DNA of 64,000 nt from the NCBI RefSeq assembly GCF_014323565.1, contig NZ_CP058669.1, positions 558,001-622,000 of the forward strand, read 5' to 3'. Positions 3,731 through 47,993 of this stretch are shown piece by piece; within the stretch, counting starts at the first letter, position 1, and the number at the start of each line of letters is the position of its first letter. The notes under the pieces were generated by a model that saw nothing but the letters and a program-made list of their open reading frames with translations, had not been told where the DNA came from and made no database searches. Position numbers and translations under genes: made by a program. This DNA is from Hyphobacterium sp. CCMP332. Lineage in GTDB: Bacteria > Pseudomonadota > Alphaproteobacteria > Caulobacterales > Maricaulaceae.

Positions 3731-6700
3731 CCTCCTTTCCTGCCTGACCGGTATCGCGGTCTGCGCGTCGGCCTATGCGGCCGAACCGGTGACGTTCTCG
3801 GCAGAGCGCACCAATGGCGTTTCGCGTATTCTGCTGACCTACCCGGACGCGTTTGCCGATGAACGCCCGGATGCCGAGGCTGAAATCCTTGGCGGGCAGG
3901 TGCTGGTGGTTCGTTTGACCGATGCCATCGAGGGCAATGCCGGCGAAATTACCTCCCGCCTGGGAGATCTGGTGGCTTTGGCGCGTATCGACCCGGACGG
4001 GAATGCGCTGAGGCTTGCTCTGCGAAATGGAGCCGTCACGCCTCAGATTTCGTCGTCCTACAATCTCATCGCCATTGATCTTGTACCATCCGGAGCGTCG
4101 CCCTTGCCGCGCATTATTTCACCGCGCGAACAGGCCGAAATAGACGCCGCTGCCGCCGCTGCTGCTGCGCCGCCACCGCCCCCACCGCCGGCTTTGGATG
4201 TCGCGGTTTCATTCGGGCAGGCTGCTGAATATACCCGTATCGAGCTCGTCTGGCCCGAGGTCGTTGACTACGAACTTGTGCAGGACAGCAATATCGCAAC
4301 CGTGACGTTTTCCGCGCCTGCCGCAATGGATCTGGTCGATATCAGAGCGGCCGGGCCACGGCTTCTGCAAGACATTACCGGAGAGCGTCGAGACACGGAC
4401 TATCGGCTGGCCCTGACCCTGGACGAGGGCGCGAGTGCGCGCATCTGGGATGAGGGCGAACGGATTGTGATCGACCTGCTGGCAGACGGGGTCAGCAATC
4501 CGACAGACGTGCTGGCGGCCCTGACGGCGCTGGCCGACGCACAGAATGCGACCGAAACGACGCCGCCCGAAGAAGAGGTCGCGCCTGCGTCAACGACCTT
4601 GGCCGAAGCCGGGATGGAAGAAGCGGAGATCGAACCGGGTCAGCCTGTTCCAGTGCCGGAAGTCGACGAGGATCATCTCAATTACGTCCCGGCTGTCCAG
4701 TCCGACCCGGTCCCCGCCAGCGGTATTGTGCAGGCCGAGGTCAGCGAGGCTGATGGCGAACTGACAGCCATCTTCGAGTGGGCAGCCCCTGTCGGAGCGT
4801 CCGTTTTCCGGCGCGGTTCCGCCGTCTGGATCGTATTTGATGCACAGGCCGAGTTGAACCTTGAAGAAATGGCGCACGGTTCAAGGGGCCATGTGATTGG
4901 CTTTACAACTGTGCAGGGGCAGGGATTTACCGCCGCCCGGATCGTCGTGCCGGAATCGACTCAGGCCGCCGTCTTCAATGATGGCCCGGTCTGGCGGGTG
5001 GTCTTGGCCGAGCGGATCGCATCGCCGCCACGCCCGATATCGGTGGAACGCGATGCGCGGCGCGGCACATCCGCCCGCATACTCGTTCAACTGGATGGGC
5101 TGGGACAAACGCTGTGGGTCGACGACCCAACGGTCGGGGACTCACTGGCGGTCATCACCGCGAGCGGACAAATTCAGGGCGCGCCATCGCGTCGTGATTT
5201 CGTCGGCATGGCTCTTCTGCCATCCAGCCAGGGTGCCGCAATGGAAATTACCGCGGATGATGTCGTCATGACGCGCCAGGGCGATGTCGTTGTGTTTGCA
5301 CGCCCGGAAGGTCTGGCACTATCGCCGACTTCTGACAGCATTCTGGCGTCAGGCCGCCGCAGCCTCGATTCTCCTTCATTTATGGATTTTGAACGCTGGC
5401 AGCGTGGGGGCCGGTTCTGGCCGACCTATACAGAACTCTACGGACAGGCGGCTCGCGGCACGACGTCCGACCGCATTACGCTGGCGCGATACATGCTCGC
5501 AAATGGCCTCGCCGCGGAAACCCTGGGCGTTATTGACGTCGCAATTGATCGCGATCCTGCCATGCAGGGTAATGCCCACGCTTTGGCATTGGTGGGCGTC
5601 GCCAGCCTCATGATGGGCCGCGTGGAAGATGCGCGGCTGGCGTTCAATGCGCCTGAAATTCGCAATGATCCGGGCGCGACACCCTGGCAGGCCCTCATCG
5701 CAGCGGAACGCGAAGAGTGGGAAGAGGCCAGTCGCCGCTTTGCTGCTTCGCGTGAGGTCCTCTTTGATTATTCGCCGGAGTGGCGCGCCCGTTTCCGGAT
5801 CATGCATGCCGAGACAGCGCTGGAGCTGAACGATTTTGCAACGGCAACCGAATTGCTGCGTCAGTTGGATAGCGACAATCCGGGACCGGAAATGGCCGCC
5901 CGGTCGGCTTTGCTGGAAGCCCGGCTTGCGGCGGTTTCGGGCAATACGGCGATGGCGTTGGGTCGTCTCGACACGCTGTCGACATCGCGCTTTCCGGAAA
6001 TCCAGGCGCTCGCCCAACTCGAACTCTACAAGATACGCATTGAAAACGAGCTGATCTCTGCTGCAGAGGCCGTTGAAGGCCTGGAAATGCTTCGTCTGCG
6101 CTGGCGCGGGGACACCACCGAGCTGGAAACCATGAATCTTCTGGCTCAGCTGTATATACGCGAAGGCCAATACAGCGAAGGTCTGGAATTGATGCAGAAT
6201 GCGCGCGCGCAATTCCCGGAGACCCGCGCGGCTCGCCGCACAGGTCAGGAGATGAGCCGCATTTTCAATGACCTCTTCCTCGACGGCGCAGCTGACCGGA
6301 TGGATCCGATCGAAGCCGTCGCGCTATTCTATGAGCACTCCTACATGACGCCGATTGGCACCAACGGAGATCGCATGATCCGGCGTCTTGCCGATCGCCT
6401 CGTGGCATTTGATTTGCTGGAGCCGGCCGCTCAATTGCTGGCGCACCAGGTCAATGAGCGCTTGCGTGAACCGGCGGCACGGGCCCGCGTCGGAACCGAC
6501 CTTGCAGTCATCTACCTGATGGATCACCGCCCGGCCGAGGCATTGACCGTGATCCGCTCCACGCGCGTTGCAGGCCTGCCCTCGGAGCTCGTCGCAGAGC
6601 GCCGCATTCTGGAGGCCCGCTCGCTCTCCGAGCTGGGTCGTCATGAACATGCACTGGAGCTCATCGAGCGGGATACCAGCGAGGAAGCCCGGCGCTTGCG

Positions 6701-37457: not shown

Positions 37458-37745
37458 TCATAGATGAAGCTGGGGAAGCTGTGATCCATGCAGCACACGC
37501 AGGATCAGAAGACGGTCCTCGACCTTTTGATAATAGATAACGTGGGAACGAAAACTGATGCGGCGAACGAAGCCGATTTTTAATTCCGTACCAACTGCCG
37601 GAAAGTCCAGCAACCGCGCAATGGCACTCTGCAGGCCCGCCCGATAGGCGTCAGTTGCTGCGAAACCAAAATTCATATCGCTATAGAAAGCGATGTCTTT
37701 GAGGTCTCCGGCGACCAGCGGCGTAATCTCAAGGACGAGCGCCAT
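37458..37745 (-). CDS. parE: ParE/RelE-family toxin
   Basis: 95 residues from the ATG at 37743-37745 (MALVLEITPLVAGDLKDIAF). Contains the ParE pattern of an N-terminal helix pair, then FPAVGTELKIGFVRRISFRSHVIYYQ and a final strand LLILRVLHGSQ. ParE toxins poison DNA gyrase; RelE relatives cleave mRNA; the sequence is closer to ParE. Its start lies inside the antitoxin gene (17-base overlap), the usual antitoxin-first arrangement. Positioned between purS and purQ. Confidence 0.85.
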   Translation of the reverse strand: MALVLEITPLVAGDLKDIAFYSDMNFGFAATDAYRAGLQSAIARLLDFPAVGTELKIGFVRRISFRSHVIYYQKVEDRLLILRVLHGSQLPQLHL

Positions 37746-37983
37746 TCGCAATCGCTTCTGCCCGGGCCTCATCAAAAATCTGATCGATGGTCTTGTCGCT
37801 CACACCGCTGTCGATGCCCTCCTGGATCAGGCGCTCCAGCTCACTTTGCTGGGCCGCACGTTCCTGTTCGCGGCGGATCAGGTCGCGGACATAATCGCTG
37901 ACATTGGCAAAGCGGCCATTGCCTGCCTGTTGTTCGACAAAGGCCTTCAGGCCGTCGGGAAGAGAGATGTTCATGGTCGCCAT
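37729..37983 (-). CDS. parD: ParD-family antitoxin
   Basis: 84 residues from the ATG at 37981-37983, preceded by GGAG at 7 bases. The N-terminal ribbon-helix-helix DNA-binding domain MATMNISLPDGLKAFVEQQ and YVRDLIRREQER is typical of ParD/CopG; the C-terminal helical tail (SELERLIQEGIDSG) would wrap the toxin. An upstream in-frame ATG (38037) is rejected because it lies across the palindrome that probably serves as operator. Confidence 0.87.
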   Translation of the reverse strand: MATMNISLPDGLKAFVEQQAGNGRFANVSDYVRDLIRREQERAAQQSELERLIQEGIDSGVSDKTIDQIFDEARAEAIANGARP

Positions 37984-38018
37984 AATGTGCTCCTTTGAAG
38001 AGTGTATATCATGGCAGA

Positions 38019-38039
38019 GATTGGCAATCCTTGCCAATC
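38019..38039. promoter_or_regulatory. Inverted repeat upstream of parD, probable autoregulatory operator
   Basis: GATTGGCAA, three bases, TTGCCAATC: perfect 9-bp arms at 38019-38027 and 38031-38039, 36 bases upstream of the parD start and 18 bases after the end of purS. ParD proteins bind palindromes of this kind to repress their own operon. No T-run follows on the minus strand, so it is less likely to be a terminator of purS. Confidence 0.6.
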
Positions 38040-39257: not shown

Positions 39258-39581
39258 ATGAGCGGGATGGACGATCGCGAAAAAGGTCTGGAGGGCGCTT
39301 ACGCTCACAGTCAGGAACTGGAATTCAAGGCGACGGTCCGCCGCAACAAGCTGTTGGGTCTCTGGGTTGCCGAGCAAATGGGCAAGACCGGTGAAGACGC
39401 CCAGAATTATGCCAAGGAAGTGGTGAAGGCGGACTTCGAGGAAGCCGGCCACGAGGACGTCTACCGCAAGGTCAAGGGTGATCTGGATGCGGCTGACGTG
39501 GACGTTTCCGAGCACGTCATCCGCACCAGAATGGACCAGCTGCTGGCGGAAGCCCGCGAACAGGTCATGAAAGAAGGCTAG
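39258..39581 (+). CDS. ATP synthase zeta-subunit family protein (DUF1476)
   Basis: 107 residues. The DUF1476 pattern is clear: DDREKGLEGAYAHSQELEFK at the N-terminus, LLGLWVAEQMG, and AKEVVKADFEEAG. In Paracoccus this protein is the zeta subunit that inhibits ATP hydrolysis by F1FO-ATPase through its N-terminus. GGAGGAG stands before the ATG. In many alphaproteobacteria this gene is next to purC, as here. Its stop overlaps the convergent DUF2892 gene by 4 bases. Confidence 0.9.
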   Translation: MSGMDDREKGLEGAYAHSQELEFKATVRRNKLLGLWVAEQMGKTGEDAQNYAKEVVKADFEEAGHEDVYRKVKGDLDAADVDVSEHVIRTRMDQLLAEAREQVMKEG

Positions 39582-39781
39582 GCGCCCACCTCGGTCTCTT
39601 TCAGCCCCATGGCCTTGAACACCATGGCGGCCGGACAAAATCCGGTGAAACTGGACTGGATTAAATTCAGTCCCACAAAGGTCGTGAGCGCCAGCCAGTA
39701 GGGGCTGAAGGCCCAGGCCAGTGCAAGCGACACTAATACCATCACGCCTGCAAACAGGGTTACAGCTCTGCCAATTGTCAT
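39578..39781 (-). CDS. DUF2892 (YgaP transmembrane-domain-like) protein
   Basis: 67 residues from the ATG at 39779-39781. Two membrane helices with the DUF2892 hallmarks: an N-terminal MTIGRAVTLFAGVMVL and the later FVGLNLIQSSFTGFCPAAMVF, the pattern fused to a rhodanese in E. coli YgaP. Here the rhodanese is a separate gene at the other end of the same four-gene operon. The cysteine in GFCPA is conserved in the family. One base separates it from the RND gene. Confidence 0.85.
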   Translation of the reverse strand: MTIGRAVTLFAGVMVLVSLALAWAFSPYWLALTTFVGLNLIQSSFTGFCPAAMVFKAMGLKETEVGA

Positions 39782-39782
39782 G

Positions 39783-42700
39783 TCAGTCTCCGTGGTTTGT
39801 GGTGGCCTCACTGGCCGCCGTTTCGGGGGAATAGGGCGCGTCGGCATCCTTGAAAATCACATAGATCGCCGGGATCACCAGCACGGTCAGTAGCGTCGAG
39901 GAGGCAAGGCCGAACAGAAGCGAAATCGCCAGCCCCTGGAAGATCGGATCTGTCAGGATCACGGAGGCCCCGATCATCGCCGCGAGCGCGGTCAGCAGGA
40001 TCGGCTTGAAGCGGATCGCGCCTGCCCGCAGCAGCGTGTCCCGCAAGGGTTCACCGGCTTCCGCGCCGTGGCGGATGAAATCCACCAGCAGAATCGAATT
40101 ACGGACGATAATCCCGGCCAGCGCGATAAATCCGATCATCGAGGTGGCGGTAAAGGCGGCCCCGAATATCCAGTGTCCGACCATGATGCCGATAAAGGTC
40201 AGCGGGATCGGAATGAGGATGATCAGCGGCACGCGGAAGGATCCGAACTGGGCCACGACCAGCACGTAGATACCCAGCAGCGCAACCATGAAGGCGGCGC
40301 CCATGTCGCGGAAGGTGACATAGGTGATTTCCCATTCGCCGTCCCAGAGCAGGGTGACATCGGCATCGCTCGCGGGTTGTCCGTAGAGGCTGATGGCCGG
40401 TTGCGGGACGGCATCGGTCCATTCGCGGCCATCCAGCGCATCAGCGACCGCCGCCATACCGTAAATGGGGGCTTCAAAATCACCCGCCAGCTCGCCCATT
40501 ACCATTTCCAGATAGCGGCCATCGCGGCGGAAAATCGGGTAGGACCCCACTTCCTCCGTGACCGTGACAACGTCACCCAGCTCGGCTATGGCGCGGGAGC
40601 CGGGCAGGGTATTGGCCGGTACCGGCGTCGACGCCAGCCGTTCATTCCAGACCCGTCCGCTATCGGGCAGCTGAACGGTAATCTCTACCGGATTGCGGCC
40701 TTCGCCACGATGGGAATAGCCCACCGGCATGCCATCAAACAGCGCGCGGATCGTGTCATAGACGTCCGATTGCTGAACCTGGAAGAATTCCAGACTTTCC
40801 TGATCAATCGCGATGCGAAGGCGCGGGCGCGGCGTACCGAAACTGTCATCGATATCGACAATATAGGGCACTTCGTTGAAGGCCGAGCGCACTTCCGTCG
40901 CGACTGCGCGGCGGGTATCCGCATCCGGCCCGTAAATTTCTGCCAGCAGTGTGGCAAGCACGGGCGGGCCCGGCGGGATTTCGGCGACCCGGATCACCGT
41001 GCCTTCCGGCACGTCGAGATCCGCCAGCAATTCCCGCGCTTCCAGCGCAATCTCGTGTGAGGACCGGTCGCGATGGTGTTTGGCCTCCAGATTGACCTGC
41101 AGATCGCCGAGTTCCGGCCGTTCGCGCAGGTAGTAATGGCGCACCAGCCCGTTGAAATTGAAGGGGGCGGCCGTCCCGGAATAGAGCTGGATCGACGTCG
41201 CCTCCGGCAGGGCGGCAAGCCGGTCTGCCGCTTCCATCAACACACGCTCGGTCCGCTCCAGCGTCGCGCCCTCCGGCAGATCGACGATGACCTGGAATTC
41301 CGATTTGTTGTCGAACGGCAGAAGCTTCACCGTCACGGCCCGGGTCACGAACAATGTCATGGACAGGGCGGTCAGGACGCCAACGATAATCAGAAGCGTC
41401 CAGGCGCTCGCGCGTGACTTGATGACCGGCGCGGCAACACGGCGGTAAATCCGCCCCAGAACGCCCTCACTGTTATGCGCATCATGGTCACCGCTGTGCT
41501 TGCGGCGGCCGGCAATCACTTTCATCAGCCACGGCGTCAGGATGACGGCCACGAAGAAGGAGAAAATCATCGCGGCTGACGCATTGATCGGGATCGGCGC
41601 CATGTAGGGGCCCATCAGGCCCGACACGAAGAGCATGGGCAGGAGCGCGGCAACAACGGTCAGGGTGGCGACAATGGTGGGGTTGCCAACTTCGGCGACG
41701 GCCTCGATGGCCGACTGGACCCGGCTTTTGCCTTGATCCATGGCCCAATGGCGCGCGATGTTTTCAATGACGACAATCGCGTCATCGACCAGAATGCCGA
41801 TGGAGAAAATCAGGGCGAAGAGCGAAACGCGATTGATCGTGAAACCCATCAGATTGGACGCGAACAACGTCAAAAGGATCGTGGTCGGAATCACGACGAG
41901 CACGACCAGACCTTCGCGCCAGCCGATAACGAAGGTCACCAGCAAGACGATGGAAATGGTCGCCAGAGCGAGGTGGAAGAGGAGCTCGTTGGCCTTTTCG
42001 TTGGCCGTCTCGCCATAATTGCGCGTGACCGTGACGTCCAGACCTTCCGGGATGAGATTCCCGCGCAGCAATTCCAGCCGTTCCAGAATGTGTTCGGACA
42101 CGACCACCGCGTTTGCGCCTTCGCGCTTGGCAATGGCGAGGGTGACGGCCGGCGCGCGGGTCCAGCCACTCTCATGGTCGTCACGCGTCAGATTCCAGGC
42201 ACGGGCATCGGCGGGTTCGGCCCCGATGACGACGTCGGCAACATCCCGCACATAGACCGGGCGGCCATCGCGGGTTGTCAAAAGCAGGAGGCCGATATCC
42301 GGCCCGCCCTGCAGGGTTTGCCCTGCAGCGATGGTGCGCGTCTGGTCCATGGCGCTGACATCGCCTGCCGGGAAGGAGCGGTTTGCTTCCGCCAGCCGTC
42401 CGGCCAGTTGTTGCAGGGTCACACCGTAGAGCGATAGCCGTTCGGGATCGGGCTCGATGCGGATCTGGTCCGCGCGCCCGCCGACGATATAGGTCTGACC
42501 CACATCTTCGACATTCATCAGCGCCGAGCGCAATTCCTCGGCAATATTGTAGATCGCATTGTCATCCCATCGCGCGGCGGCGTCCGGGGAGGGCGACAGT
42601 GTCAGCGAGACAATGGCGACATCGCTGATCCCGCGGCCCGCAATCAGGGGCTCGGGAATGCCAAGCGGCATTCGAGCGTAATTGGCGCGAATTTCTTCAT

Positions 42701-43040
42701 GCACGCGCAGGATGGCGTCATCGAAGTCGGTGCCGACCTCAAATCGCGCCGTGACCATAACCTGATCATCTTCGGTCTGGGAATAGACGTGCTCGACAGA
42801 CCGGATAGATCCGATGATCGCTTCAAGGGGTTCTGTGATCAGCTCCACGGCATCCGGCGCGCGCAGTCCGTCGGCCTGCACCATCACATCGACCATCGGC
42901 ACGGAAATCTGCGGTTCTTCCTCGCGCGGAATCGTCAGCAGGGCGATCAGCCCGACCGCGAGCGATGCCAGCAGTATCAGCGGCGACAGTGGCGAGTTGA
43001 TAAAGGCTCGCGTCAGATTTCCGGAAATACCCAGCTTCAT
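39783..43040 (-). CDS. RND-family efflux permease
   Basis: Proton-driven inner-membrane pump that works with an adaptor and an outer-membrane channel. 1085 residues. N-terminal helix, two large periplasmic loops and twelve membrane helices in the AcrB/MexF plan. The proton-relay helix 4 has SIGILVDDAIVVIENIARHW with the Asp-Asp pair intact. The IPREEEPQISVPMVDVMV opening is like a subgroup of uncharacterised RND pumps near HAE1. Its start overlaps the adaptor stop by 4 bases. No outer-membrane factor gene is in the operon. Substrate unknown; the context points to sulfur compounds. Confidence 0.93.
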   Translation of the reverse strand: MKLGISGNLTRAFINSPLSPLILLASLAVGLIALLTIPREEEPQISVPMVDVMVQADGLRAPDAVELITEPLEAIIGSIRSVEHVYSQTEDDQVMVTARFEVGTDFDDAILRVHEEIRANYARMPLGIPEPLIAGRGISDVAIVSLTLSPSPDAAARWDDNAIYNIAEELRSALMNVEDVGQTYIVGGRADQIRIEPDPERLSLYGVTLQQLAGRLAEANRSFPAGDVSAMDQTRTIAAGQTLQGGPDIGLLLLTTRDGRPVYVRDVADVVIGAEPADARAWNLTRDDHESGWTRAPAVTLAIAKREGANAVVVSEHILERLELLRGNLIPEGLDVTVTRNYGETANEKANELLFHLALATISIVLLVTFVIGWREGLVVLVVIPTTILLTLFASNLMGFTINRVSLFALIFSIGILVDDAIVVIENIARHWAMDQGKSRVQSAIEAVAEVGNPTIVATLTVVAALLPMLFVSGLMGPYMAPIPINASAAMIFSFFVAVILTPWLMKVIAGRRKHSGDHDAHNSEGVLGRIYRRVAAPVIKSRASAWTLLIIVGVLTALSMTLFVTRAVTVKLLPFDNKSEFQVIVDLPEGATLERTERVLMEAADRLAALPEATSIQLYSGTAAPFNFNGLVRHYYLRERPELGDLQVNLEAKHHRDRSSHEIALEARELLADLDVPEGTVIRVAEIPPGPPVLATLLAEIYGPDADTRRAVATEVRSAFNEVPYIVDIDDSFGTPRPRLRIAIDQESLEFFQVQQSDVYDTIRALFDGMPVGYSHRGEGRNPVEITVQLPDSGRVWNERLASTPVPANTLPGSRAIAELGDVVTVTEEVGSYPIFRRDGRYLEMVMGELAGDFEAPIYGMAAVADALDGREWTDAVPQPAISLYGQPASDADVTLLWDGEWEITYVTFRDMGAAFMVALLGIYVLVVAQFGSFRVPLIILIPIPLTFIGIMVGHWIFGAAFTATSMIGFIALAGIIVRNSILLVDFIRHGAEAGEPLRDTLLRAGAIRFKPILLTALAAMIGASVILTDPIFQGLAISLLFGLASSTLLTVLVIPAIYVIFKDADAPYSPETAASEATTNHGD

Positions 43041-43993
43041 GGCTGCACCAGAACGTCGCCCGCTAACAGACCGGAGAGAATTTCAATATCGGAGCCGCGG
43101 ACTTCCCCGCGCTGGATCACAACATCATGTGCGGCATCTCCGTCGCCCTGAACGCGCACATAATCAACGCCATAGCGGGTATCGATATATATATCGGGGA
43201 TGAATATCGTCTCGCGGCTATCAACCGCCACAAGCACCCGAACCCGCTCGCCGACGAAGAAGTCTCCCAGTCCGTCAACCAGTGCATCGGCCATGACGCG
43301 GCCCTCCTGAATGCGCGGATAGACCTGGCGAATAAAGCCGTTTGGCGCGACATCGCCGGTCAGGTCGGAGCCATCGACGCGAATGCTGTCACCTTCAGAG
43401 ATGGAACGTGCATGGCGTTCCGGCAGCATCAGGCGCAACACGTAAAGGTCGGACGCCACCGAGGCTATCATCTCGCCCGGCAGGACGACTGAGCCGGCCG
43501 TCACGGGTACATCCAGCACCCGCCCGGCCGTTGGCGCGAGGACATTGCCTTCGCGCGATTGCTGCACAATGACGGCACGTTCCTGCCGCGCGGACGCCAG
43601 CTGGTTTTCCAGCACATCAACCGCTGTCTGCGCTTCATCCAGCCGGGCTTGCGCAAAAATTCCGCGGTCAAACAGATCCTGTGCCCGGGCGAGGTCCGAC
43701 CGGGCCTGATCCAGCTGGGCGCTTAACGCGGCGGCTGTTGAGTTCACGGCGCCGATCTGCGGCCCGAGACGGTCGTCAACCACGATGGCGATAATATCAC
43801 CGGCCTCGACCGCATCGCCCTCATCAACGCGCAATTCACCGATCACGCCGCCAATACGGGCACGGGCGCTGACCACGTCGACGCTTTCAACGGTGGCGAA
43901 CACGGCCTTTTCGTCAGTCACGAGACTGGACTGGACCGTATGCGTTTCCGCTGATGTGGCCTGGAGAATGGCAAGGAGGAGAGATGCGAACAT
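43037..43993 (-). CDS. RND periplasmic adaptor (membrane fusion protein)
   Basis: 318 residues. Exported; the first 15 residues look like a signal peptide (LLLAILQATSAET). The lipoyl-like half motifs GVIGELRVDEGDAVEAGDII (about 48-67) and VLAPTAGRVLDVPVTAGSVV (about 154-173) flank an alpha-helical hairpin (about 80-145); a beta-barrel domain and a membrane-proximal domain follow. It lacks a lipobox. Sits between the rhodanese and the RND permease, 5 bases after the rhodanese stop. Confidence 0.92.
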   Translation of the reverse strand: MFASLLLAILQATSAETHTVQSSLVTDEKAVFATVESVDVVSARARIGGVIGELRVDEGDAVEAGDIIAIVVDDRLGPQIGAVNSTAAALSAQLDQARSDLARAQDLFDRGIFAQARLDEAQTAVDVLENQLASARQERAVIVQQSREGNVLAPTAGRVLDVPVTAGSVVLPGEMIASVASDLYVLRLMLPERHARSISEGDSIRVDGSDLTGDVAPNGFIRQVYPRIQEGRVMADALVDGLGDFFVGERVRVLVAVDSRETIFIPDIYIDTRYGVDYVRVQGDGDAAHDVVIQRGEVRGSDIEILSGLLAGDVLVQP

Positions 43994-43998
43994 GAGCC

Positions 43999-44355
43999 TC
44001 AGCCTTTCTGCGGATCGACCAGACGGCCGGTTGCGGGATCAACGGCAACGGTCGGCAGACCGGCGGACTTCCAGCCCATGATGCCGGACGCCATGTGTTT
44101 GGTGATGGGCACACCGGCTTGCGCACACCGGGCCAGCGCATCGCCGGAACGTTTGGCCGATCCACAATGCAGTATGACGTCGCGCGTGGCGTCAATCGGC
44201 AGCGCCTTGGGATCAAAAGTCGAGAGCGGATGGAGCAGGGCACCGTGAATACGCTCGGCGGCAAACTCCGCTGGCTCGCGCACATCAATCAGAATCGCTT
44301 CGCCTTTTTCCAGAGCTTCGGCCGCGGCTTTCGGGCTGATTTCCTGTGCAGACAT
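43999..44355 (-). CDS. Rhodanese-like sulfurtransferase
   Basis: 118 residues from the ATG at 44353-44355. Single rhodanese domain with the CDC25-like LIDVREPAEFAAERIHGA (about 23-40) and the active-site loop HCGSAKRSG with catalytic Cys64. No membrane helix, so it is the soluble half of a YgaP-like protein. Its promoter region is shared with the divergent BigR-type regulator gene. A role in handling persulfide made during sulfide oxidation is the likely reading of the context. Confidence 0.9.
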   Translation of the reverse strand: MSAQEISPKAAAEALEKGEAILIDVREPAEFAAERIHGALLHPLSTFDPKALPIDATRDVILHCGSAKRSGDALARCAQAGVPITKHMASGIMGWKSAGLPTVAVDPATGRLVDPQKG

Positions 44356-44383
44356 GGGTATCTCCGTTACCAGAACTATATAA

Positions 44384-44420
44384 TTGACATCTAAATAAGC
44401 AATTGCTACATTAGTGTCAA
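44384..44420. promoter_or_regulatory. Divergent promoter with inverted TTGACA boxes, probable BigR/SqrR operator
   Basis: TTGACA on the plus strand (44384-44389), 17 bases, then TACATT (44407-44412): a good promoter for the regulator and sqr. TTGACA also reads on the minus strand (44420-44415), toward the rhodanese operon. Together TTGACATCTAA and TTAGTGTCAA form an imperfect inverted repeat that would suit a dimeric ArsR-family repressor blocking both directions. AT-rich as such operators usually are. Confidence 0.6.
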
Positions 44421-44436
44421 CTAATAAAGGTGAGAA

Positions 44437-44772
44437 ATGAGTTCCATTGCTGATCCATCCATTCGCGAGCTTCAGGAACAGGCGGGCGATGCAGCTGCTT
44501 TCCTGAAGCTGATCGCGAACGAAAAACGCTTGCTGATTCTGTGCCGCCTGGCCTTGGGCGAGGCGACGGTCGCCGAGCTGACCACGATTGCGAACCTGTC
44601 CCAGTCGGCCATGTCCCAGCATCTCGCCAAGATGCGGCAGGACGGGCTGGTTCGGGGCCGCAAGGACGGCTTGCAGGTCTTTTATTCCATCGCCGATCAG
44701 CGCTGCATCGGCCTTTTGCACCATCTGAAGTCTGAATTCTGTACTGCGGTCGATGAGGTCGCGGGCAATTAA
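44437..44772 (+). CDS. bigR: ArsR-family sulfide/persulfide-responsive repressor (BigR/SqrR type)
   Basis: 111 residues. Winged-helix ArsR domain with the recognition helix region NLSQSAMSQHLAKMRQDGLV (about 53-72). Three cysteines: Cys36 in LLILCRLALGE, Cys90 and Cys102 in SEFCTAV. The spacing Cys36-Cys102 (66 residues) equals that of Cys41-Cys107 in SqrR of Rhodobacter, the pair that forms a polysulfide bridge and releases DNA. Predicted repressor of both the divergent rhodanese-RND operon and of sqr, 35 bases downstream. Confidence 0.88.
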   Translation: MSSIADPSIRELQEQAGDAAAFLKLIANEKRLLILCRLALGEATVAELTTIANLSQSAMSQHLAKMRQDGLVRGRKDGLQVFYSIADQRCIGLLHHLKSEFCTAVDEVAGN

Positions 44773-44807
44773 AGAGCCGGGACATTCCGGCCTCACGGGA
44801 GGAAATC

Positions 44808-46091
44808 ATGACACATGTAGCTATTCTCGGCGCCGGTCTGGGCGGCGTGCCCATGGCACTGGAGGCGCGCAAGGAGCTGCGCAAGGAAGACAAGGTCACC
44901 GTCATCAGCGATTCCGCGACCTTTCATTTCACGCCGTCCAATCCCTGGGTGGCTGTCGATTGGCGCAAGCCGGACGCCATCAAGGTCGATCTGGCGCCGA
45001 TGTTTGCGAAGAAGAAGATCGATTTCGTCCATTCGGCCGCCAAAAAGGTCCGGCCGGAACAGAACAATATCCTTCTGGCGAATGGCGAGACGGTTGACTA
45101 CGACTATCTGGTCATAGCCACGGGACCGGAGCTGGCCTTCGACGAGATCAAGGGGCTGGGACCGCATGGAGGGCATACGCAGTCGATCTGCCATGTCGAC
45201 CATGCCGCCGACTCCAAGCTGGTCTGGGACGATTTCGTCAAGGATCCGGGACCCATTGTCGTTGGCGCGGTCCAGGGCGCATCCTGCTTCGGCCCGGCCT
45301 ATGAATTCGCCATGATCATGGAAACCGACCTGCGCAAGCGCAAAATCCGCGACAAGGTGCCCATGACCTTCGTGACATCAGAACCCTATATCGGTCACCT
45401 CGGTCTGGACGGGGTGGGCGATACCAAGGGCCTGCTCGAAAGCGAGATGCGCAACCGGCACATCAAGTGGATCACGTCCGCGCGCGTCAAAAAGGTCGAG
45501 CCCGGCAAGATGATCGTCGAAGAAGTTGCCGAAGACGGATCTGTGAAGGAGACACATGAGCTGCCCTTCAAATACTCGATGATGCTGCCGGCCTTCCGGG
45601 GTATCGAGGCGGTTCGGGATATCGAGGGTCTGGTCAATCCGCGTGGCTTTGTCATCGCCGATCACACCCAGCAGAATCCCACATTCAAAAATGTTTTCTC
45701 CGTCGGGGTCTGCGTGGCTATCGCGCCGGTCGAAACCTATGCCGTGCCGGTGGGTGTGCCCAAGACCGGCTTCATGATCGAATCCATGGTGCATGCGGCC
45801 GCGAAAAACATCCGCGCTCTGATCGACGGCAAGGAGCCGCGCAACGAGGCGACCTGGAATGCCGTTTGTATCGCCGATTTCGGCGATGGCGGCGTGACCT
45901 TTGTCGCCATGCCGCAAATCCCGCCCCGCAATGTGAACTGGTCGGCTGATGGCGGCTGGGTCCATTTGGCGAAAGTCGCCTTCGAGAAATACTTCCTTGG
46001 TAAAATCAGGCGCGGCGTCGGCGAGCCATTCTATGAAAAGGCCGTCTTCGACATGCTGGGTGTGCACAAGGTCAAGCCGAAGGCGGACTAG
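44808..46091 (+). CDS. sqr: Sulfide:quinone oxidoreductase
   Basis: Membrane-associated flavoprotein that oxidises sulfide and passes electrons to quinone. 427 residues. N-terminal FAD motif VAILGAGLGGVPMALE, and cysteines at 128 (QSICHVDH), 160 (GASCFGP), 302 and 354 (NAVCIADFGDGG). The 128/160/354 trio corresponds to the catalytic Cys128/160/356 of the Acidithiobacillus enzyme. Quinone-side helices near the C-terminus (VHLAKVAFEKYFLGK) are present. Co-transcribed with the BigR/SqrR-type regulator. Confidence 0.94.
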   Translation: MTHVAILGAGLGGVPMALEARKELRKEDKVTVISDSATFHFTPSNPWVAVDWRKPDAIKVDLAPMFAKKKIDFVHSAAKKVRPEQNNILLANGETVDYDYLVIATGPELAFDEIKGLGPHGGHTQSICHVDHAADSKLVWDDFVKDPGPIVVGAVQGASCFGPAYEFAMIMETDLRKRKIRDKVPMTFVTSEPYIGHLGLDGVGDTKGLLESEMRNRHIKWITSARVKKVEPGKMIVEEVAEDGSVKETHELPFKYSMMLPAFRGIEAVRDIEGLVNPRGFVIADHTQQNPTFKNVFSVGVCVAIAPVETYAVPVGVPKTGFMIESMVHAAAKNIRALIDGKEPRNEATWNAVCIADFGDGGVTFVAMPQIPPRNVNWSADGGWVHLAKVAFEKYFLGKIRRGVGEPFYEKAVFDMLGVHKVKPKAD

Positions 46092-46113: not shown

Positions 46114-46674
46114 TCACGCGTCATCCTCCGGTTTGACAAGCCCGGGCAGGCCATCAATAGACTCGGCGTTCGAGGCATATCGCCGAGCGCGCCAGTCCTC
46201 GTCGCTGCGATGGGCGTTGGTCCGGACCAGTTGATCGCGTTCATCGGCAAAGTCGTAGAACGGCACGCCCCAGCCACAGGAATCCTGGATGCGGGTTATG
46301 TCTGCCGTGATGATGGCGCGCGCCTTCGGAAAGTCCGGAAACTGCGCCAGCGCGTCCGCAAAGCCGGGATCGTCAAAACAGATCGCTTCACCCTTGCCGT
46401 AGAGCCGCAGAATGTTGGCTTTTCCCTCAAAGGCACAGAACATGAAGGTGATGCGGCTATTCTGGCGCAGATGCGCGACGGTCTCTATGCCCGACCCGCC
46501 CAGATCGAGATAGGCGACTCTGTTCGGGCCCAGAATGCGGAAGCTGTCATACCCCTTGGGCGAGACATTCACATGGCCATCGTTGCCCGATGGCGCGGTG
46601 GCGACGAAGAACATTTTCTGGGCTTTGATGAAGTCGGCGATCCGGGCGTCAATATGATCGTAGAGCTTCGCCAA
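46114..46674 (-). CDS. Pyridoxamine 5'-phosphate oxidase-fold flavoprotein
   Basis: 186 residues of the split-barrel FMN-binding fold, with FFVATAPSGNDGHVNVSPKGYD (about 22-43) and VAYLDLGGSGIETVAHLRQN (about 53-72), typical of a group of uncharacterised PNPOx-like proteins. Substrate unknown; F420 or FMN binding possible. Convergent with sqr (22 bases) and 17 bases downstream of purB on the same strand, so possibly co-transcribed with purB. Confidence 0.83.
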   Translation of the reverse strand: MAKLYDHIDARIADFIKAQKMFFVATAPSGNDGHVNVSPKGYDSFRILGPNRVAYLDLGGSGIETVAHLRQNSRITFMFCAFEGKANILRLYGKGEAICFDDPGFADALAQFPDFPKARAIITADITRIQDSCGWGVPFYDFADERDQLVRTNAHRSDEDWRARRYASNAESIDGLPGLVKPEDDA

Positions 46675-46691
46675 ATCACTTCTCCTCCTCG

Positions 46692-47993
46692 TCAGTCAGT
46701 AAACACCCGCGCAAAAATCGTATCCACATGTTTGAGGTGGTAGCCCTCGTCAAAGCAGGACTCGATCTGCGCGTCTGAGAGGAAGGCTTTGACATCGGCA
46801 TCGGCCTTGAGGTGATCCATCAGCCGCCCGCCTTCATCCCAGGTTTTCATGCCATTGCGCTGGACCAGACGATAGCCGTCCTCGCGCGAGGCACCGGCCT
46901 GCGTCAGGGCCAGCAGGATGCGCTGGGAATTATGGATGCCGCCATAGGCTTCCAGATTCTCCCGGCAGCGATCCTCATTGACGATCAGCTTTTCGATCAT
47001 GCCGGCGGTGCGGTGCAGGGCAAAATCCAGGTGCACGGTCGAGTCCGGCCCGATGCCGCGTTCGACCGAGGAGTGGGAGATATCGCGCTCATGCCAGAGG
47101 GCGATATTTTCCATCGCCGGCACGACGGCCATGCGGACGAGGCGGGCCTGTCCTGTCAGATTCTCGGTCAGGATCGGATTGCGTTTGTGCGGCATGGCCG
47201 AGGAACCCTTCTGGCCCTTGGAGAAAAATTCCTGTGCTTCACGCACTTCGGAACGCTGCAGATGGCGCACCTCGATGGCGATATTTTCAATCGCCGAGGC
47301 GATCAGGCCCAGAACGGCGAAATAGTTTGCATGCCGGTCGCGCGGAATGACCTGTGTGGAAATCGGCTCGATGGAAAGCCCCATCTTCTCCGCGACATGG
47401 GCTTCGACCGCCGGATCGACATTGGCGAAGGTGCCGATGGCCCCGGAAATGGCGCAGGTGGCAATCTCCTCGCGCGCGGAAACCAGACGCGCCCGGTTGC
47501 GGGCAAACTCGGCGTAGAAGCGCGCAAATTTCAGGCCCATCGTCGTCGGCTCGGCATGGATGCCGTGGCTGCGGCCGATACAGGCGGTGTATTTGTGCTC
47601 TTCTGCGCGGGTTTTCAGCGCCGCCATGACGCGATCCACACCGGCGATCAGAATGTCGGCGGCATCGCGCATCTGCACGGCCAGGCAGGTGTCCAGCACA
47701 TCCGAAGAGGTCAGCCCCTGATGCACATAGCGGGCATCCTCGCCGACCAGCTCGGCCAGATGGGTCAGGAAGGCGATGACGTCATGTTTGACCTCGGCCT
47801 CGATGGCGTCGATCCGGTCAACGTCAAACGTCTTGTCCTTTGCCTTCCAGACGGCCTTAGCGGCCGCCTCGGGCACAACGCCCAGCTCGGCCAGCTTGTC
47901 GGTCGCGTGCGCCTCGATCTCGAACCAGATGCGATACTTGTTTTCCGGTGACCAGATGGCCGCCATTTCGGGACGGGTATAACGAGGGATCAT
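46692..47993 (-). CDS. purB: Adenylosuccinate lyase
   Basis: Two steps of purine synthesis: SAICAR to AICAR, and adenylosuccinate to AMP. 433 residues, with the fumarase-superfamily signature GSSAMPHKRNPI (about 262-273), LTSSDVLDTCLAVQMRDAA near 93 and RSHGIHAEPTTMG near 140 (catalytic His). It starts MIPRYTRPEMAAIW. In relatives purB often lies near purC and the zeta-subunit gene; here the sulfide block separates them. Confidence 0.96.
   Translation of the reverse strand: MIPRYTRPEMAAIWSPENKYRIWFEIEAHATDKLAELGVVPEAAAKAVWKAKDKTFDVDRIDAIEAEVKHDVIAFLTHLAELVGEDARYVHQGLTSSDVLDTCLAVQMRDAADILIAGVDRVMAALKTRAEEHKYTACIGRSHGIHAEPTTMGLKFARFYAEFARNRARLVSAREEIATCAISGAIGTFANVDPAVEAHVAEKMGLSIEPISTQVIPRDRHANYFAVLGLIASAIENIAIEVRHLQRSEVREAQEFFSKGQKGSSAMPHKRNPILTENLTGQARLVRMAVVPAMENIALWHERDISHSSVERGIGPDSTVHLDFALHRTAGMIEKLIVNEDRCRENLEAYGGIHNSQRILLALTQAGASREDGYRLVQRNGMKTWDEGGRLMDHLKADADVKAFLSDAQIESCFDEGYHLKHVDTIFARVFTD

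Follow-up and report, generated by a model that had tools for sequence, protein, structure and literature searches.

Why should an RND efflux pump be encoded in the midst of genes for sulfide oxidation? This question is raised by a cassette of six genes in the window, the whole stretch of 64,000 nucleotides analysed here (positions 558001-622000 of contig C1 of genome G000, a genome of 2.69 Mb in a single contig). From its closest named matches, the host can probably be placed in the Alphaproteobacteria. One row of the cassette encodes a rhodanese, a periplasmic adaptor (MFP), an RND permease and a YgaP-like transmembrane protein of the DUF2892 family (PF11127), and the opposite row encodes an ArsR-family regulator and a sulfide:quinone oxidoreductase (SQR). 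The fate of the sulfane sulfur made by SQR is understood for oxidation and sulfite export, but not for direct export. The gene set suggests a little-studied clearance of toxic sulfur by export of a presumed sulfur cargo. With a probability of roughly 55%, we regard the cassette as a detoxification module induced by sulfane sulfur, in which the pump would clear a sulfide-oxidation product from the cell. This reading is built on observed gene content, packing, conserved cysteines and active sites, a promoter dyad, linkage and genome-wide co-occurrence.

Sulfur proteins of the cassette

An original prediction, made from this DNA alone, had described a row of rhodanese, MFP, RND and DUF2892 genes with gaps of 1-5 bases or a 4-base overlap, opposite the regulator and sqr. 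Coordinates and family matches agree with it. All six genes were found at their place, four on the minus strand and two on the plus strand (Table 1). The rhodanese and MFP genes are 5 bases apart, the MFP and RND genes overlap by 4 bases, and 1 base separates the RND gene from that of the transmembrane protein. The proposed identities of the BigR/SqrR-type regulator, SQR, rhodanese and YgaP-like protein also hold in PDB and Pfam matches.

The best PDB match of SQR is the sulfide-quinone reductase 3sz0 (491 bits, residues 2-424). Its cysteines C128, C160 and C354 line up with those of this solved enzyme; over 64 rows, the window included, they are present 59, 60 and 60 times, respectively. Similarity over the full length together with the three cysteines, which are the catalytic ones of this type, marks it, as far as sequence can tell, as a type I SQR. 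The rhodanese matches PF00581 (47.5 bits) and, in the PDB, the rhodanese of E. coli YgaP (2moi) best; of 47 rows, counting the window, 46 have its CX4R loop. The transmembrane protein matches the YgaP-like_TM model PF11127 with 41.3 bits against a cut-off of 25.3, and its cysteine recurs in 105 of the 106 rows, again with the window. This cysteine, C49, presumably corresponds to C159 of E. coli YgaP. C159 is reported near the site of thiocyanate (SCN-) in a passage of PMC4730233.

The original prediction had spoken of a split YgaP. Among the open reading frames (ORFs) of 179 loci, with 106 matches to the transmembrane domain and 53 to rhodanese, none holds both domains. Separate genes are therefore the normal state, and "unfused YgaP parts" is the safer wording. 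By the definition of YgaP as one protein with rhodanese and PF11127 domains, the two genes here are not YgaP; a YgaP-type rhodanese and a YgaP-type membrane domain with its cysteine are both present.

The regulator and the shared promoter

The regulator has its best PDB matches in HlyU, the ArsR entry 6o8k, which we take to be SqrR, and YgaV. Its C36 and C102 align with cysteines of 6o8k, which is the arrangement of two-cysteine sensing. The sensing cysteines of SqrR are C41 and C107 according to a passage of PMC9995734. The BigR model NF040642 scores it at 68 bits, where the cut-off is 155; the regulator is therefore best described, from its sequence, as SqrR/BigR-like and is not assignable to BigR proper. 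A cysteine pair at a spacing of 60-68 occurs in 70 of the 84 ArsR proteins encoded near the pump in all sets of loci described below, versus 0 of 2 control ArsR proteins. The spacing is 66, as in SqrR, in 52 of the 84 and 62 in 10. In several same-order relatives and in Henriciella and Asticcacaulis (L113, L116, L153, L156-L158, L162, L166, L200 and L213), the ArsR gene lies downstream of the pump and the second cysteine stands about one helical turn earlier, at a spacing of 62-63 rather than 66.

Two promoter-like elements lie between the gene rows. The one on the plus strand, TTGACA-N17-TACATT at 44384-44412, has 10 of 12 consensus matches; the one on the minus strand, TTGACA-N17-TATTTA, is missing from the list of a stricter scan. 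They overlap and point towards each other across inverted repeats of CTAA...TTAG boxes, which form a dyad. A loose pattern finds the opposed elements again in each of the 11 relatives that were looked at, and the boxes of these relatives are mostly near CTAATTTAG and CTA..TTAG, with six bases between. Judging from this arrangement, a single repressor could shut both promoters. When G000 was scanned with the promoter pattern (up to 2 mismatches), the single match was this locus, with zero mismatches, and the reversed pattern, run as a control, matched 2 forward and 3 reverse sites. A wider regulon was considered and dropped: a second target with this promoter pattern was not found in G000.

A possible sulfur relay

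In the protein families concerned, the ArsR switch is opened by persulfide, the product of SQR is persulfide or polysulfide, and rhodanese is a carrier of sulfane sulfur. By analogy, repression and induction may proceed as follows. A cell at rest would have its two-cysteine ArsR repressor bound to the dyad, where it blocks the two opposed promoters. Oxidation of sulfide and a rise of persulfides would then lead to a sulfur bridge between C36 and C102, the repressor would leave the DNA, and both operons would be turned on. SQR would convert sulfide into persulfide, polysulfide or S0 and pass the electrons to the quinone pool, and the rhodanese would carry sulfane sulfur in the form of an enzyme persulfide. 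This sulfur would probably be taken to or across the inner membrane by the YgaP-like protein, which has a conserved cysteine, and may then be passed on to the pump. Together with a TolC-type channel encoded elsewhere, MFP and RND would then expel a hydrophobic or organic sulfur product. We infer both this relay of sulfur and the substrate of the pump.

The pump and its subfamily

What kind of pump is it? The RND permease matches PF00873 (487.8 bits) and MFP matches TIGR01730 (109.4 bits, cut-off 94.9). An AlphaFold2 model of the permease (pLDDT 89.4) has an AcrB-like fold, with CmeB, AcrD, AcrB and AdeJ as top fold matches at about 20% identity; the best 50 of 329 fold matches (E <= 0.001) are multidrug pumps, 5t0o being CmeB. 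D419-D420 are invariant in both alignments and form the aspartate pair of such pumps. A full ACR_tran match, an AcrB-like fold and the paired aspartates characterise it as an HAE1-type RND pump.

The type of pump bears on the suggestion, made for the pump of an Azospira operon by the authors of that work (in sections of PMC5358917), that metal sulfides are exported. Export of metals or of metal-sulfide complexes formed under sulfide stress is improbable for the pump studied here. The heavy-metal (CusA/CzcA) model TIGR00914 reaches 245.6 bits against a cut-off of 701.45, and the multidrug-type model NF033617 reaches 406.6 bits, also below its cut-off. The multidrug pumps among the best fold matches point the same way, and no metal gene was found among the ten representatives of neighbour clusters that were scanned.

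Relatives of the pump are spread widely. At E <= 1e-180, it is present in 30 of the 385 genomes of a class sample; class matches longer than 1000 residues have at least 60% identity, except for one genome at 46%. In a phylum sample, identity drops from 58% to 47% among the matches listed, with L205 of the set of named organisms between, at 52%. A FastTree tree split 163 subfamily rows from 20 controls with full local support, but with a warning from the program about meeting long branches. The sequences thus indicate a distinct RND subfamily, for which the tree is only supportive given this warning.

The pump has no cysteine, and in this it has company. Counted over rows of 950-1200 residues, rows outside this range being dropped, 72 of 94 pumps in the alphaproteobacterial clade are cysteine-free, as are 43 of 69 distant ones; the control RND proteins give 7 of 34. 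In the alphaproteobacterial clade, no difference is seen between linked pumps, 55 of 75 of them cysteine-free, and unlinked pumps, with 17 of 19 (p 0.13), and in the distant set linked pumps carry fewer cysteines (p 0.013). However, cysteine loss as a sign of function or cargo was reduced to a trend, since clade members do not count as independent cases and G000 itself has four further RND proteins, of which three (L189, L190 and L192) are also cysteine-free. Pumps of one distant branch (L175, L177, L123 and L211) contain 3-5 cysteines and have no gene of the four neighbours near them.

Gene neighbourhood and co-occurrence

Does the pump keep the same company elsewhere? A first set of 99 loci, the window included, was mapped for six families. 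A second set consisted of 80 loci of named organisms, or 79 after removal of L203, a duplicate of L169. This named set is the best 80 of a longer scan and was found via an alignment drawn from the first set. The hidden Markov models of the neighbours were built on the first 99 loci, so that the named set is the fairer test. As controls, 20 RND loci from 11 of 12 alphaproteobacterial genomes were picked by hand, mostly from top rows. Loci ending at contig edges were scored as misses. Within 5 kb of the pump, genes for the transmembrane protein, ArsR, SQR and rhodanese were found in 61, 56, 45 and 32 loci of the first set, in 45, 28, 19 and 15 of the named set, and in 0, 2, 0 and 0 control loci. 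One-sided Fisher tests of the 79 named loci against the controls, in which kinship is ignored, give p values of 7e-7, 0.02, 0.008 and 0.03 in the same order. Co-occurrence of this RND subtype with sqr and bigR in other genomes, on which the original prediction had staked itself, is thus borne out: the pump subfamily travels with them in Alphaproteobacteria. The full sulfide set is a trait of the alphaproteobacterial clade and of some loci in the gammaproteobacterial range (e.g., L176, L178 and L186), and the YgaP-like transmembrane protein is the far-reaching partner of the pump, also in Bacteroidota and Acidobacteria.

Partners recur while their order varies, and 61 gene orders occur among the 179 loci. 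The gene of the transmembrane protein, for example, lies directly after RND in 41, before MFP in 20, and beside SQR in 41 of 106 cases. In one genus of the family (L053:5107-5739 and L054:4679-5344), the pump stands without sulfur neighbours; two recurring same-strand ORFs upstream of it have no Pfam or NCBIfam match, and the opposite strand also has recurring ORFs.

Pump and SQR also go together at the level of whole genomes. With cut-offs of E <= 1e-150 for the pump and E <= 1e-90 for SQR, 28 of the 119 genomes of the family have both, one has the pump alone (G108), three have SQR alone (G023, G035 and G096), and 87 have neither (Fisher 9e-23, kinship ignored). Every genome listed of the genera g1, g4, g5 and g11 has both or neither. 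Because G095 and G102 hold pump and SQR about 0.4 Mb apart, this co-occurrence is more than linkage. Among 385 genomes of the class, both occur in 11, the pump only in 19, SQR only in 3, and neither in 352 (p 3e-11). In the class, this SQR type is seldom found without the pump, whereas the pump is often found without SQR.

These counts also bear on the idea that the pump is a general exporter of amphiphiles or drugs, induced by sulfide as collateral protection (e.g., against damaged quinones or thiol adducts), and that its cargo is not sulfur. Its fold and D419-D420 are as in HAE1 multidrug pumps, and passages of PMC8614764 and PMC11211675 report that sulfane sulfur acts on MarR-type regulators. 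Such a pump, however, should not track SQR genome by genome, with 28 genomes holding both and 4 discordant among 119, and a YgaP-like gene lies near the pump in 45 of the 79 named loci. We consider this explanation unlikely.

Named carriers of the pump

The pump was found in 52 plasmid records at E <= 1e-150, and six of these were examined. In Paracoccus denitrificans PD1222, it adjoins a BigR-type sulfide operon. The order there begins with MBL hydrolase, DUF2892, YeeE/YedE, DUF6691, a TIGR01244 sulfur transferase, ArsR and cytochromes, and continues with DUF2892, MFP, RND, DUF5368 and an SQR-like flavoprotein. The MBL hydrolase is PDO-like and scores 570.6 bits with the Blh model, below the cut-off of 625. 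The flavoprotein has 22% identity to the SQR of the window and is no close relative of it. The ArsR has C36 and C102, and the RND protein is cysteine-free. This sulfur cluster holds two DUF2892 genes (L353:2616-2819 and 5800-6000), one among the BigR-type genes, the other beside the pump. Locus tags in PD1222 are PDEN_RS23380 for the pump, RS23385 for MFP, RS23390 for DUF2892 and RS23405 for ArsR. In Azospirillum TSH58 and A. brasilense, the genes are DUF2892, MFP, RND, rhodanese and ArsR; on an Agrobacterium plasmid the row is DUF2892, MFP, RND and a flavoprotein, and on a Rhizobium plasmid it is ArsR, CMD, DUF2892, MFP and RND.

Small anions are unusual as RND cargo, and this argues against detoxification of cyanide as the task of the cassette, in which the rhodanese would make thiocyanate and the YgaP-like protein and the pump would expel it. 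Export of SCN- has been proposed for E. coli YgaP, in a passage of PMC4730233. But SQR and a sensor of persulfide type point to sulfide, and PD1222 has the PDO-like and YeeE/YedE genes next door. The cyanide explanation is accordingly quite improbable.

Points against export of sulfane sulfur

Several observations weigh against the reading of the cassette as a sulfane-sulfur-induced module with a product-removing pump. First, the linkage thins out with distance. Among 63 distant named loci, the transmembrane protein is encoded near 34 pumps, ArsR near 15, SQR near 8 and rhodanese near 6, and 11 of these 15 ArsR proteins are without the cysteine pair. The whole set as universal partner was thus rejected: outside Alphaproteobacteria, only the transmembrane protein is clearly enriched (34/63 vs 0/20). 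Second, 19 of 30 pump-bearing genomes of the class are without this SQR type, which rules out SQR as an obligatory partner in the class. Third, no gene for an outer-membrane channel (OMF) adjoins the cassette; proteins of the OEP family are encoded elsewhere in G000, and this family recurs within about 6 kb of the pump in 13 loci of the mapped set. Fourth, G000 encodes a Blh/ETHE1-like dioxygenase (C1:1084412-1085248, 51% identity to the query), so that export as the only outlet is ruled out. Fifth, deletion of the Azospira operon mentioned above left the rate of H2S oxidation unchanged, according to sections of PMC5358917. This would fit handling of the product rather than oxidation of sulfide, but it also fits a pump without a role in sulfur. 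Sixth, the BigR operon of Acinetobacter has YeeE/YedE transporters, and "RND" is absent from the text of PMC7315123 as far as it was available.

A further group of loci shows the pump with no sulfur partners near it. MFP and RND stand alone in 45 of 179 loci and RND alone in 9 of 179, some of which are cut by contig ends, and in a Shinella plasmid the pump is accompanied by a TetR regulator, with no sulfur gene in the stretch shown. The 45 loci with MFP and RND free of the four neighbours, and the pairing with TetR, speak for the pump as a mere rider, the working units being ArsR-SQR and rhodanese-transmembrane protein. Against this stand the 4-base overlap and the 1- and 5-base gaps in a single gene row, the recurrence of partners across 61 orders, and the co-occurrence of pump and SQR even without linkage. 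That the pump merely rides along is very improbable.

The module with a product-removing pump can be extended to a bolder proposal, which is possible but which we put forward with clear reserve: the widespread, mostly cysteine-free RND subfamily may be a dedicated exporter of sulfane sulfur, induced by a sulfide sensor, with the YgaP-like protein as a persulfide-passing subunit and with cysteines lost to a thiol-attacking cargo. Its odds were lowered because only the transmembrane protein is clearly enriched in the 63 distant loci. If it were true, export across both membranes would be a third outlet for the product of SQR, beside oxidation by persulfide dioxygenase and storage, and the YgaP-like protein would be the most constant partner of the exporter, from Alphaproteobacteria to Bacteroidota. 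A conserved subfamily with recurring partners makes the proposal open to test in laboratory strains, and it would give a physiological role to an RND branch annotated just as "efflux transporter".

Layout and flanks of the locus

The features are collected in Table 1. On one flank, the gene of ATPase zeta (PF07345) and purC are found (window 39258-39581), and on the other (window 46114-47993) a PNPOx-like gene and purB, named by eye. Two genomes of the same genus are without the pump and SQR. In one (L345), the PNPOx-like gene comes about 1.3 kb after purC and the ATPase zeta gene, and in the other (L347) purB is about 0.7 kb from the zeta gene; no RND or SQR match lies between the flanking genes in either locus. 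From these closed-up flanks, the cassette is a unit of gain and loss. On the minus strand between purQ and purC (window 37458-38037), there is a pair of small overlapping ORFs that resemble, by eye, a ParE-type toxin and a ParD/CopG-type antitoxin.

Table 1. Features of the cassette, in window positions.
Feature	Position	Strand	Description
YgaP-like transmembrane protein	39578..39781	-	PF11127, 67 aa, single cysteine C49
RND permease	39783..43040	-	1085 aa, HAE1/AcrB-like, zero cysteines
RND periplasmic adaptor (MFP)	43037..43993	-	318 aa, zero cysteines
Single-domain rhodanese	43999..44355	-	118 aa, active-site loop CGSAKR
Divergent promoter/operator region	44356..44436	.	81 bases between gene rows
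ArsR-family regulator, SqrR/BigR/YgaV/HlyU kind	44437..44772	+	111 aa, cysteines 36, 90, 102
Type I-like sulfide:quinone oxidoreductase (SQR)	44808..46091	+	427 aa, cysteines 128, 160, 354

Comparison with known systems

The original prediction had held a sulfide response with its own RND pump to be a new system. The link between sulfide and RND pumps is partly in print already, as sections of PMC12423496 and PMC5358917 attest. In the literature searched, no paper was found in which DUF2892/PF11127 has a function tied to an RND pump, nor one with a defined pump subfamily, a YgaP-like partner, a shared operator or a test of the cargo; one paper came up for DUF2892 together with sulfide. "RND" is absent from the passages of PMC10509353 that were at hand and from the text of the review PMC9774590.

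According to sections of PMC12423496 (2025), dual-cysteine ArsR regulators of the sHdrR/SoxR/SqrR type seem to have sqr, rhd and RND efflux genes among their targets, and the RND genes beside such regulators likely serve transport of sulfur compounds. The section on these neighbourhoods leaves the pump subfamily, the cassette, its promoter and the YgaP-like partner undefined. In Azospira suillum, the operon Dsui_3440-3443, with genes for RND, SQR and MFP and one unknown gene, is highly expressed with H2S and is also indicated by Bar-seq, and the DUF2892 gene Dsui_0042 is about 10-fold up with H2S, its deletion slightly delaying onset (PMC5358917, 2017, in part). As described, this operon shares RND, SQR and MFP genes and a relation to sulfide with the cassette, and a DUF2892 gene is H2S-induced there. 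Its gene make-up is different, with no regulator or rhodanese named in those sections.

E. coli YgaV-YgaP resembles the cassette in having an ArsR sensor, a rhodanese and a YgaP-like transmembrane domain. There, however, the rhodanese and the transmembrane domain are in one protein, and the operon is not known to include a pump or SQR. SqrR of Rhodobacter capsulatus is a sensor of the same type set over sqr and a rhodanese-domain protein, while the available text of PMC9995734 is without any RND pump. The BigR operon of Xylella and Agrobacterium, as described in passages of PMC5823870, has in common with the cassette a dual-cysteine ArsR repressor, sulfide detoxification, a sulfur transferase and a membrane transporter. 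In the BigR operon, Blh oxidises the product to sulfite and the transporter is TauE-related, whereas the cassette is without a dioxygenase and its exporter is an RND pump.

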